Source of the DNA: Acidithrix ferrooxidans
GTDB taxonomy: Bacteria; Actinomycetota; Acidimicrobiia; Acidimicrobiales; Acidimicrobiaceae
Assembly (NCBI RefSeq): GCF_000949295.1
Contig: NZ_JXYS01000089.1
Location: 1-32,147 of the forward strand
Reading direction: 5' to 3'
DNA length: 32,147 bases
Shown: piece after piece, positions 12,500 through 22,735 of the stretch
Numbering within the stretch: position 1 is the stretch's first letter
Layout: the number at the start of each line of letters is the position of its first letter
Position numbers and translations under genes: made by a program
The notes under the pieces: generated by a model
What the model saw: the letters and a program-made list of their open reading frames with translations, nothing else
Database searches by the model: none
What the model was told of the DNA's origin: nothing

Positions 12500-13885
12500 G
12501 GTTCATGGCCCTAGGTGTCAAGGAGAGTAGAAAGCCAAACGCTCTGCGAACAAGTATGACATCCAAAGGTTTCTCAACTCGCTAGATCGACAAGATCGTC
12601 CACTGCACGCCCATACCACTGAAATAATTGCACATGATTTACACGAGGTCATAACCACCTTTAGGACGAACAGTAAAACAGCTATGAAAGTTCGATCTCC
12701 TTGGCGCAAGAAGAACTACCGCCCTCTATCGTTCTCAGCTCTATCGTTCTCAGCTCTATCGTTCTCAGCTCTATCGTACTTAAGGGGGTACGGTTGGCGT
12801 ATCTCCAAAGGCCAACTCCACCTATCACTAGGAAGAGGCCGTCCACGTATTGACGTAGCGATTCCAACTATTTTGGACTCTTATGTCTAACAAGAATGTT
12901 GACCCTGAAGTGTTAACCCAAGCTATGGGGGTGAGATACAACTGTGTTGGGACCAAGACCACAGACGCTTCAGCCTCCATATCCCTTACAAGACGGTGCG
13001 TGAAGGCTCACATGGAGATGCCACCACCGCTATAGACGAGAAAATCATCAACCCTATGGCCAGTAACAGGCGTGCGACATGAGGTCGCCGAATTTAACTG
13101 TTCTAAAAGGAGGAACTTGTCATTCAGCTGGCAAAGCCCGAGCAATCAATTCCCAAAGAAATAAGGCCATAGGCAAGCACCAACATAAGATCAGCAAGTG
13201 TAAGAATGGATCACCTAGGCATCGCCGTCTAGTTGCGGCGAAGAAGAAAGTCAACTTTAAGACAAAGCTAGCACTTTGTGATTTTGACCATCAAGTCTCG
13301 CACAAGGCGGCCAATCACGTCATTAACCACAACACCGCCACACTCATAGTTGGTGACGTAAGAGGGATAGAAAAACATAGTAAAGCCAAACGATCCATGG
13401 GTCGCCACGGTCGCCAGCAACTATTCCAGTGGTCGAGAGGACGCCAAGGGCGCTATCTACAAGAAAAGACCAAGCTAGAGTTGGTTCACCAGGACGAGTC
13501 ATACTCTAGCCAAACTTGTCCAGCGTGTTTAAGACGCAACCGACCATCAGGTCGGCACTACCGATGCAAGAGCCCTATCTGTGGGTTCAGCTGTCATCGA
13601 GACGCCCTAGGAGCAATAAACATTCTCCAGAAGGCGATATACGCAGAGCACTCTCCAATTGGACTAGATACAACAATCTTAGTCACGTATCTTCGAGCTG
13701 AAAAACATTGGTCACTCAATCAACGCAAGACACACCAAAAGGTGCAGTGCCCTAAGACCAGAGCCCGAAGTAGTGCCCAGAACCGGGCCTTGTCTGAGAC
13801 ATCTCAGACAAGCAAGCCGAAACTAGCAAACTCATCTACCAGTGCTAATTCATTAGTACCAGACCAGTCGGTCCCGGTGGCGTGA
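12500..13885 (+). pseudogene. TnpB (IS200/IS605-type RNA-guided nuclease), frameshifted
   Basis: A TnpB gene is readable across several frames. KYDIQRFLNSLDRQDRPLHA starts near 12551, then WRKKNYRPLS and YGWRISKGQLHLSLGRGRP. After shifts near 12885 and 12930 come WGEIQLCWDQDHRRFSLHI and TTAIDEKIINPM (RuvC-I Asp). After a TGA at 13079-13081 a further frame runs open to 13885. It contains GDVRGIEK (RuvC-II Glu), the zinc finger TCPACLRRNRPSGRHYRCK plus CGFSC, and HRDALGAINIL (RuvC-III Asp). All catalytic residues survive, but at least three frameshifts prevent a full protein. A 15-bp unit is triplicated in-frame at 12724-12768. The open segment 13079-13885 alone would lack RuvC-I. No TnpA is present. 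Confidence 0.85.
12724..12777 (+). repeat. 15-bp tandem repeat within the TnpB relic
   Basis: CTCTATCGTTCTCAG occurs three times (12724, 12739, 12754) plus nine bases of a fourth copy. It encodes repeated ALSFS in the TnpB frame where relatives seem to have a single copy, so it is a secondary expansion. Confidence 0.92.
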
Positions 13886-20351: not shown

Positions 20352-21532
20352 ATAATTCTGTCGATAATACGGTCGATACGGATATTTCCGCTCTTTTTCG
20401 ACTACATGATATTGAGTTTATCGTGACTCGATCTTTAGCTCTCCGTGACCCTTTTGCATTGCATGGTTTTGCATTCTTGCAGTTTCCTTTCCTTGACTGA
20501 AGTAGCGTGATGCACTTTGGATCTTGTGGAATGGATGGCTGATTTAACGAGAGTTCTAATGAGCCTGTGTGACCTTATGTCCTGCAGGCGACATCGGCAA
20601 GCCTTAGGTCCTTATCAGGTTGTGCCAGTTCGAAGATTAATAGGGTGCGCCAATAGTTATGGAGGGGAACCTAATGTGTTTGGTGTCGCCTTCATCTATC
20701 TCGCGCGCGAAAGGATGATAGGAGTTGGATCTAGTTCGAACCAGCAAATACACTGACGGTCACCGCTAATCATCAGCCCTCAAAAATGAACCAATTCGAT
20801 GGAACCAATTCGACAAATCTATCGATCTATCTGTAGATACAGTGTGTGGAAATGAGTTCTGGGAAAGATCGGCGATCGATGCTGGCGAATTCCCAAGTCT
20901 GTTGTGGCTGCACGAGCTCATAGCCTAAGTGACCTCACGTAAAGGATCCTTTTTCTCCAAGGCACTCGTAAATCCCAAGTGACGCTAGATGCCATTTGCC
21001 AAAGCCACCCGAGACCCGGCCCCCTTCAAATCGGCCCCCTTTCGAACCGTATTAAGCCCTTATTATCGATGACATAAAGGCGCGACTGAGAGCACCGAGT
21101 TGACTTCCTCGATTGAAAATGCCTAACGGTTCAGGCTCGTGCACAACAAAGGGCATAGCTTTTTTGATTAGTGTTTCTACTTGTCACGGATTTGTAGATT
21201 TGTGCCCCGAATCTCCCTGTCCAAAGGTAATGTTTGAATCTTCGTTTTTAGAAGATCTAAAGCCTTAGGATGACGCTGAAAGAGCTGCCTACCATGACGA
21301 CCATCGACTCTCTAGAACTGACTGACCGTGGTTGATTGGTCGAAAGACGAAGTAATCATTGATCCAATCAAGCGATCATGTGGGTGTTTTGGATATTGCT
21401 CTGGATTAATTGGTGTAGTTTTCTTTGGTTTTTTAGGCGAGCTTGCACCAGATGTGGCAATTACCAGATGGTCCGTTCGCTTTTTATCGTCTATAGTCGC
21501 ATTATCTAGGAAGCTTGAACGATGGGTAGGAT
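20352..21532. other. About 1.2 kb between lipoprotein and RidA-hydrolase fusion, no gene recognised
   Basis: Small open frames (20517-20756, 21328-21609) resemble nothing known and lack good start sites. A short direct repeat, AACCAATTCGA, occurs twice near 20789-20813, and a GGCCCCCTT motif twice near 21020-21042. The promoters of the two flanking genes, which point away from each other, must lie in this stretch, but I could not place them. Confidence 0.4.
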
Positions 21533-22735
21533 ATGACTTCGCAATTAGATCGATATTCTGTGGCAGGGCTAGGGCGTCTTCGAGAGTTCTCTCACGCCGC
21601 TATGAGTGATGATTTGATCTTTGTATCGGGCACATTGGGAACCTCTGAAGATTTAGGACTAGTTGATGGTGGGATCGGACCACAGACGATCCAATGTCTG
21701 GGGAATATCGAACGGATCTTAAACGAGGTCGGATCGTCCTGGAACGACGTATTGAAGGTGAGCGTCTTCGTTGCGGATATGGCTAACTTTGATGCCATGA
21801 ATCGTTCCTATGCCAGCTTCTTTGACCAGGAGCCACCAGCTCGGATAACAATCGGCGGGGTCGTCTTAGCGTTGGGCGCCGCGGTGGAGATCGAATGTGT
21901 GGCAAGGCGTCATCGTCCTGAGAGGGTCTGGAGTGCGAAAGATATTCCACGCAGGACGGGTTTTTTCGACAATGAAGGCGAGTCCCTCTATTATGAAGTT
22001 ATTGGTGAAGGTGGAGTGCCGTTAATCTTGAGCCATGGTGCGGGAGGAAATCACGCTTCATGGTATCAGCAGGTGGCTGAGTTCGCTCGTGATCGTATGG
22101 TCGTAACTTGGGACCATAGGGGGTATGGGCGCTCCAGCGATCGTGCGGGATTGTCTGGACCAGAAGTGGCGGCACGAGATCTTTTGGCGTTGGTAAAGGA
22201 GCTGTCTATTGGCAAGGCAGACTTCGTCGGACAATCCATGGGAGGATGGAGCGTCGTTGGAGCTGCACTAATGGAGCCATCTTTATTTCGCCGGTTGGTC
22301 TTAGCGGATACACTAGGTGGTTTTATAACCCCTGAAATTCAAGCGGCTGTCGCATCCTCGAAGGGTTTTGAGATCCAGTCCACCGATCATCTTGGTGGTC
22401 ACCCAGCCCTGTCTCTTTCGTTTACGCAAAGGTTTCCAGATCGAGCACACCTCTATCAGTGCCTATCCGCAATGGGAAGTGTCGACGGTCAGGTCATGAT
22501 CCCCCGTTTGCTTGCACATACTCATTCAAAGGAAGATGCGGACTCACTCACCATGGCGATCTTATGTCTCGTTGGAGATAGAGATCCTCTCTTTCCTCCT
22601 AGATCGATTCGGGCTCTTACCGATCTTCTTCCCGATGCCCGCATTACGGAGATTACCGGCTGTGGCCACTCTCCATATTTTGAAGATCCCCAGGCGTGGA
22701 ATTTTGCAGTCAGATCCTTTTTGGATAGGCAATAG
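21533..22735 (+). CDS. Fusion of a RidA-family (YjgF/UK114) domain and an alpha/beta-hydrolase
   Basis: A 400-residue two-domain protein. Residues ~1-126 are a RidA/YjgF domain: LIFVSGTLG (28-36), VLKVSVFVADMANFDAMNRS, then PPARITIGGVVLALGAAVEI and EC (101-122). Arg104 matches the substrate-carboxylate Arg needed for enamine/imine deamination. Residues ~142-400 are an alpha/beta-hydrolase: LSHGAGGNHASW (oxyanion region, 167-178), DHRGYGRS, nucleophile elbow GQSMGG with Ser235, GDRDPLFPP with Asp351, and GCGH with His379. In known pathways RidA proteins (RutC) and alpha/beta-hydrolases (RutD) act on successive or related intermediates as separate proteins, so this may channel an unstable enamine or hydrolyse its product (inference). 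ATG 21533 follows GGGTAGG. No catabolic operon adjoins it. Confidence 0.88.
   Translation: MTSQLDRYSVAGLGRLREFSHAAMSDDLIFVSGTLGTSEDLGLVDGGIGPQTIQCLGNIERILNEVGSSWNDVLKVSVFVADMANFDAMNRSYASFFDQEPPARITIGGVVLALGAAVEIECVARRHRPERVWSAKDIPRRTGFFDNEGESLYYEVIGEGGVPLILSHGAGGNHASWYQQVAEFARDRMVVTWDHRGYGRSSDRAGLSGPEVAARDLLALVKELSIGKADFVGQSMGGWSVVGAALMEPSLFRRLVLADTLGGFITPEIQAAVASSKGFEIQSTDHLGGHPALSLSFTQRFPDRAHLYQCLSAMGSVDGQVMIPRLLAHTHSKEDADSLTMAILCLVGDRDPLFPPRSIRALTDLLPDARITEITGCGHSPYFEDPQAWNFAVRSFLDRQ

Follow-up and report, generated by a model that had tools for sequence, protein, structure and literature searches.

The window analyzed here, a stretch of 32,147 nucleotides of Acidithrix ferrooxidans DNA, carries an open reading frame that starts with an ATG, contains no internal stop codon and encodes a RidA-type domain followed by an alpha/beta-hydrolase domain (Table 1). 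The ~1.2 kb upstream of the gene (positions 20352-21532) is devoid of ORFs of at least 100 aa, and the next ORF of that size downstream encodes a LysR-type regulator on the opposite strand. Elsewhere in the window an ORF at 13079-13885 (+) has a Cas12f1-like/TnpB TNB domain (PF07282, 48.2 bits); we presume that it belongs to an IS605-type element.

Table 1. Coordinates of the fusion gene, its domains and key codons, and of distant Rid/RutA-like gene pairs in three genomes.
Feature	Position	Strand	Basis
RidA::alpha/beta-hydrolase fusion gene, 400 aa	21533..22735	+	single frame; 15 further intact relatives
RidA-type domain, residues 17-125	21581..21907	+	PF01042, 94.5 bits, cut-off 27.3
Arg104 codon, equivalent of E. 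coli RidA Arg105	21842..21844	+	alignment; Arg in 16/16 intact fusions
Glu119 codon, equivalent of E. coli RidA Glu120	21887..21889	+	Glu in 16/16 intact fusions; Ala in 3/3 eroded
Linker, about residues 126-145	21908..21967	+	variable, then mostly conserved RRTGF segment (alignments)
Alpha/beta-hydrolase domain, residues 146-397	21968..22723	+	PF00561/PF12697
Ser235 codon, predicted nucleophile	22235..22237	+	alignment
Asp351 codon	22583..22585	+	alignment
His379 codon	22667..22669	+	alignment
Distant Rid/RutA-like pairs	G000:C111:1826-3325; G004:C73:56915-58135; G008:C44:2990-4201		

A preliminary description of this DNA had proposed that RidA and an alpha/beta-hydrolase are joined in one polypeptide. 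This is borne out, since both domains exceed their Pfam cut-offs: the hydrolase half matches PF00561 at residues 163-265 (76.5 bits, cut-off 25.8) and PF12697 at residues 164-388 (66.1 bits, cut-off 26.3). The key residues named in that description are in place and are kept in all 16 intact fusions found, namely Arg104 (within PPARIT), Ser235 (GQSMGG), Asp351 (VGDRDP) and His379 (CGHS). The protein thus belongs to the Rid family by the curated PF01042 cut-off and to the alpha/beta-hydrolase superfamily by the Pfam cut-offs together with the Ser-Asp-His triad, and it carries in Arg104 the equivalent of RidA Arg105 that marks RidA-type deaminases. A single-sequence monomer model of the protein had a mean pLDDT of 34 and was unusable.

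The description had also named a frameshift-type join of two genes as one of the outcomes that would refute its proposal. Such an annotation, assembly or frameshift artefact is virtually ruled out because 16 different genomes, the window's and 15 others, carry the same architecture as one intact single frame. Among the near relatives whose flanks were read, no adjacent split halves were found.

Distribution and ancestry of the fusion

The fusion is a real, conserved bacterial protein. The 16 genomes in which it is intact belong to four families (f1, f23, f47 and f58) of one order, and the 15 other copies are 53-65% identical to the window protein. Its distribution is patchy. When searched with the full protein, 4 out of 42 genomes of the window's family (G000, G004, G008 and G025 in our genome labels) proved to have a full-length relative in a single frame. 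In overlapping samples made up mostly of draft genomes, the full-length fusion was detected in 5 out of 298 genomes of the order (G000, G004, G025, G130 and G138; E-value limit 1e-40), in 4 out of 395 of the class (G000, G004, G025 and G551; 1e-45) and in 1 out of 396 of the phylum, the window genome itself (1e-45). The family of G551 yielded it in 10 out of 172 genomes (1e-15), that of G138 in one of three (1e-20) and that of G130 also in one of three (1e-20), the other two having a stand-alone hydrolase or a hydrolase fragment. In the order, class, phylum and G551-family searches scoring was limited to the best 4 to 10 candidates of each genome.

No relative turned up in the viral collection, and of 34 phage records with a match none reached 80% coverage of the query. 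Ten out of 1126 plasmid matches covered at least 80% of it; six of these records are annotated with rutD and rutC, one with a hydrolase and a flavin reductase, and three are unannotated. In the last three the halves are encoded by two genes, each in its own frame, with rutB-like and rutA-like genes next to them (the rutA-like ones named by eye). Adjacent separate halves are therefore found in distant relatives, as rutC-rutD in plasmid records. A search of genome contigs recovered only three relatives of the RidA half. We found no description of a RidA-alpha/beta-hydrolase fusion in one library of open-access literature, a scope outside which most subscription papers and the domain-architecture databases lie, and the available parts of PMC4433059, PMC8113886 and PMC4921024 describe none.

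In a tree of 42 hydrolase domains, 15 intact fusions, three copies with an eroded RidA half and the RidA-less hydrolase of G180 form a clade with support of 100/99, to which the G162 hydrolase is a weakly supported sister (90/85). This tree leaves out G994 (close to G993 and G995), a Roseomonas hydrolase, family paralogs and RutD, and the fragment matches G1016 (at a contig end) and G087 and the stand-alone hydrolases G1025 and G1027 are omitted from the trees in general. An earlier hydrolase tree of 38 rows, which did include the Roseomonas hydrolase, the paralogs and RutD, recovered the clade, then with eight members, at 98/95; RutD sat on a long branch and did not belong to it. In the RidA tree the fused halves form a clade with four stand-alone RidA proteins (100/98). 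The best RidA tree does not unite the 15 fused halves, but constraining them to a single clade was not rejected (p-AU 0.431). In addition G025 groups with the fusions of genus g76 in the hydrolase tree (95/82) and stands apart in the RidA tree (88/88). One fusion event would fit these trees; it is unproven because the fused RidA halves are not monophyletic in the best tree and because the placement of G025 conflicts. No hydrolase relative was found in the flanks searched of the four stand-alone RidA relatives, and no RidA-half relative (E<=1e-3) in the flanks of the stand-alone hydrolases L040-L050; flank reading left out L052-L063.

Conservation, erosion and loss of the RidA half

Like Arg104, the RidA-half residues Asn90, Tyr93, Phe19 and Glu119 are kept in 16/16 intact fusions, and Ser32 is kept in 15, being Ala in G1090. 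On the hydrolase side, Ser235, Asp351, His379 and His168 are present in 20/20 clade members, be they intact, eroded or RidA-less. The HGxG and GQSxGGW motifs and the catalytic triad are invariant in 19 aligned relatives, and the triad is also invariant in 24 stand-alone hydrolases besides G180, one of them from Roseomonas. Outside g76 the two halves diverge about equally (ratio 1.02, 36 pairs, 9 out of 11 genomes). For the intact g76 fusions, six pairs without G1090 gave dN/dS values (Nei-Gojobori method, own script) of 0.18-0.41 for the RidA half against 0.15-0.20 for the hydrolase half, and the RidA half is therefore somewhat less constrained there. The conservation of both active sites in all intact fusions speaks for a coupled two-step enzyme of a new pathway, in which both sites would act sequentially on one substrate, an enamine released by hydrolysis, for example, being deaminated at once, as the preliminary description had proposed. 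We nevertheless regard this reading as doubtful, as a series of changes within g76 argues against it.

Five g76 genomes with an intact fusion were found (G551, G1078, G1080, G1087 and G1090). In three others (G1068, G1072 and G1082) the RidA half is recognisable but altered: Phe19 is replaced by Arg or Pro, Ser32 by Ala, Gly33 by Pro, Asn90 by Asp, Ala or Glu and Glu119 by Ala. One of these halves scores 20.2 bits against PF01042 (cut-off 27.3) and the other two give no match at E<=0.001. In G180 the RidA half is absent and the hydrolase is kept; its short leader at the N terminus resembles the G1072 one (MxARARATEG) and is followed almost directly by an LSRRTGF segment, an arrangement that looks as after an internal deletion of the RidA half. 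The three eroded proteins and that of G180 form a clade (100/100) nested inside the intact fusions, and all four retain the catalytic triad. The tree requires at least three changes of state, as would be expected if the RidA half was gained once, eroded once and lost once. The erosion of the RidA half in three genomes and its deletion in a fourth, all within one genus, are new here.

The eroded proteins are 33.5% identical to their intact congeners in the RidA half and 63.6% in the hydrolase half, and among themselves they are 71% and 79% identical, respectively. Measured against the hydrolase, divergence is faster in the eroded half (ratio 1.37) than in the RidA half of the intact congeners (1.17). 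In the eroded lineage, dN/dS values resting on three pairs and 99 codons are 0.31-0.33 for the RidA half and 0.27-0.34 for the hydrolase half of the same pairs, the latter being less constrained than the hydrolase half of the intact congeners (0.15-0.20). With a dN/dS of ~0.3, like that of the hydrolase half, the eroded RidA half is not in free drift. All three eroded proteins still align an Arg with Arg104, next to a gap in the alignment; the loss of deamination that we infer for them is therefore deduced from the other residues. We read the eroded half as a fold that may have been retained for a structural role once its pocket had been altered, though it may instead have acquired a new function.

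Judged by these sequences, the hydrolase is the retained core of the fusion, because its triad is kept where the RidA half is eroded or deleted. That four of the 20 clade members keep the hydrolase with a RidA half altered (three) or gone (one) also argues against an obligate coupling of deamination to hydrolysis.

Gene neighbourhoods and Rid complement

Neighbouring genes were called with our own script and mostly named by eye, a subset being scanned against Pfam or NCBIfam. The neighbourhoods of the fusion differ between lineages, and no common pathway context links these lineages. In G004 the fusion shares its strand with genes for DUF429, isochorismatase-type, HyuB, HyuA and CaiB proteins, the isochorismatase-type neighbour scoring 44.9 bits against RutB (cut-off 377.95). 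This set would fit the degradation of a cyclic ureide or amide and so lends some weight to a coupled two-step enzyme, as does a gene of the dienelactone-hydrolase family that lies close to the G130 fusion on the opposite strand. However, none of the other fusions whose flanks were read showed the G004 set, including that of the near relative G008 (on a contig of only 3.4 kb). HyuA, which is present in 5 out of 8 genomes searched, was not found in two of the seven intact-fusion genomes among them (G008, which is 86% complete, and G551), nor in G180. A hydantoin/isochorismatase pathway was not adopted because the G004 gene set did not reappear in those flanks. G993 and G994 have an FGGY kinase near the fusion, and the neighbours in G138 and G025, as named by eye, differ from those in other lineages.

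The g76 locus is syntenic, with a divergent AMP-ligase-like gene in 9/9 loci by resemblance (one of them scanned) and a PAS-GGDEF-EAL gene next downstream in six scanned loci (L104, L155, L156, L157, L159 and L160); no PAS-GGDEF-EAL gene was called downstream of the fusion in G1082. From this neighbour a link of the g76 locus to c-di-GMP signalling is possible. Two observations concern stand-alone Rid genes. In G146 (L101:7851-10294) a RidA gene of the fused-half clade overlaps a molybdopterin oxidoreductase gene (PF00384) by 4 nt, which suggests that the two form an operon and that RidA may have a further partner here. Three genomes from the genus of the window have a distant Rid gene, with the Arg, that divergently adjoins a gene with sub-threshold similarity to RutA (Table 1).

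The PF01042 complement was determined for 14 genomes, which among the g76 clade members cover G551 and G180, the other seven lying outside the set. No PF01042 protein other than the fusion was found in G551, and three of its congeners without an intact fused RidA (G180, G114 and G149) each have a stand-alone RidA. Apart from the fusion, G000 and G004 each have a single distant Rid (46 and 53 bits). These counts favour two independent housekeeping activities, the fused half being the genome's general RidA and the hydrolase having an unrelated job. We consider this rather improbable, since among these draft genomes G008, G025, G130 and G138 have the fusion plus a further RidA-like protein carrying the Arg, the distant Rids of G000 and G004 keep the Arg, and G013, G017 and G024, which lack the fusion, manage with one distant Rid each (45-54 bits). 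The latter three indicate that a genome of this family can lack a canonical RidA; G003, likewise without the fusion, has a canonical and a distant Rid. That the fusion stands in for a general RidA is thus allowed by these complements, not established.

Proposed function and comparison with known enzymes

The window protein falls below the cut-offs of more specific models. Its RidA domain scores 84 bits against TIGR00004 (cut-off 106.25). The hydrolase half is below the cut-off of all 25 NCBIfam models listed (of 26), the nearest being TIGR02427 (PcaD, 3-oxoadipate enol-lactonase; 99.5 bits, cut-off 255.85), and it scores 33 bits against TIGR03343 (the meta-cleavage product hydrolase BphD; cut-off 462.15). 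Against solved chains the hydrolase profile of the clade matches esterases best, with 5egn at the top, followed by 3-oxoadipate enol-lactonase and numerous further chains. Because of this match, action of the hydrolase half on an ester or lactone is suggested by resemblance. The hydrolase might also degrade an acyl-lactone or similar signal: 5egn is deposited as Esterase and is, we assume, an acyl-homoserine-lactone esterase, and the PAS-GGDEF-EAL gene downstream in g76 would suit such a role. As that neighbour was seen only in g76, and as 423 distinct solved chains of many specificities match the profile at E<=0.001, a signal-lactone hydrolase is highly improbable.

The preliminary description had also compared the fusion with RutC and RutD of pyrimidine degradation and with 2-aminomuconate deaminases. 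A Rut-like or 2-aminomuconate-type catabolic enzyme, in effect RutC joined to RutD, would be in line with the two superfamilies standing in the same order as rutC-rutD and with the isochorismatase-type neighbour in G004. The comparison with RutC and RutD is not supported: the protein stays far below the cut-offs of TIGR03610 (RutC; 55.7 bits, cut-off 169.1) and TIGR03611 (RutD; 65.7 bits, cut-off 238.5), E. coli RutD has Ala where the window protein has the predicted nucleophile Ser235 and falls outside the hydrolase clade, and RutA is above cut-off in 0/8 genomes searched, with weaker matches in seven. A Rut-type pathway was rejected on the model scores, the Ala of RutD and the RutA result, and we give the reading as a whole hardly any credence. 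As to 2-aminomuconate deaminase, the match between the RidA half and the solved chain 6izh (5e-10) is weaker than those to many other Rid chains, and among the neighbours, mostly named by eye, the dienelactone-hydrolase-family gene near the G130 fusion is the one relevant to an aromatic-cleavage setting.

In the parts of the literature available to us, the Arg105-type Arg is needed for deamination by RidA (PMC4433059), the corresponding Arg is needed in RutC (PMC8113886), and in both its replacement by Ala nearly or fully abolishes activity. By analogy, Arg104 should enable the RidA half to bind an imine or enamine that carries a carboxylate. Rid proteins are typically trimers and several Rid subfamilies are without known function, according to the accessible text of PMC4433059.

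The explanation that we favour, tentatively and with a probability of about 0.45, is a bifunctional protein in which a RidA-type imine/enamine deaminase was fused before an existing small-molecule serine hydrolase and the RidA fold is partly structural. One fusion event would have put the RidA-type domain in front of the hydrolase. The RidA domain would form its usual trimer, displaying three hydrolase domains, and the hydrolase (Ser235-Asp351-His379, esterase/lactonase-like) would perform the main reaction. The RidA half would, in most members, act on an imine or enamine as well, hydrolysing it; this could be the unstable nitrogenous substrate or product of the hydrolase itself, or else general 2-aminoacrylate-type by-products. 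Where RidA catalysis is not needed, the fold would be kept for assembly and could eventually be dropped. A counterpoint to this explanation is that the RidA pocket, as aligned, is not fully canonical. It is conceivable, though unlikely, that the protein is a lineage-specific channelled deaminase-hydrolase whose nitrogenous metabolite is still undescribed, with RidA recruited to a serine hydrolase as both trimeric scaffold and second catalyst, and that one genus made RidA purely structural and then lost it. The stable fusion names a candidate partner activity for Rid proteins, and the intact, eroded and lost states within one genus offer a natural experiment that separates catalytic from structural use of the Rid fold.

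With the RidA subfamily, within the Rid (YjgF/YER057c/UK114) family, the fusion shares PF01042 and keeps the equivalents of Arg105, Ser30, Asn88 and Glu120. It differs in its C-terminal hydrolase and in having Phe for Tyr17, Thr for Gln32 and Thr for Cys107; RutC likewise has Phe where E. coli RidA has Tyr17. The stand-alone RidA proteins of the same order (L074-L077; G069, G118, G146 and G153) share a clade with the fused halves and are 50-57% identical, but have such a hydrolase neither attached nor adjacent. Similarly, stand-alone alpha/beta-hydrolases from within the class, such as G162, G462 and G239, share HGxG, GQSxGGW and the triad at 35-47% identity, yet lack the RidA half and have varied neighbours where these were read. 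E. coli RutC and RutD are of the same superfamilies and are encoded by adjacent genes in the order of the fusion halves, but they are separate proteins. Precedents for covalent joining differ in the partner. In the PcaCD/PcaDC fusions a hydrolase of this type is joined to a small second enzyme, which is 4-carboxymuconolactone decarboxylase there and RidA in the window fusion. In tandem 3x-RidA, as described in the accessible part of PMC4433059, a Rid domain is covalently joined, but to further Rid domains and not to a hydrolase.
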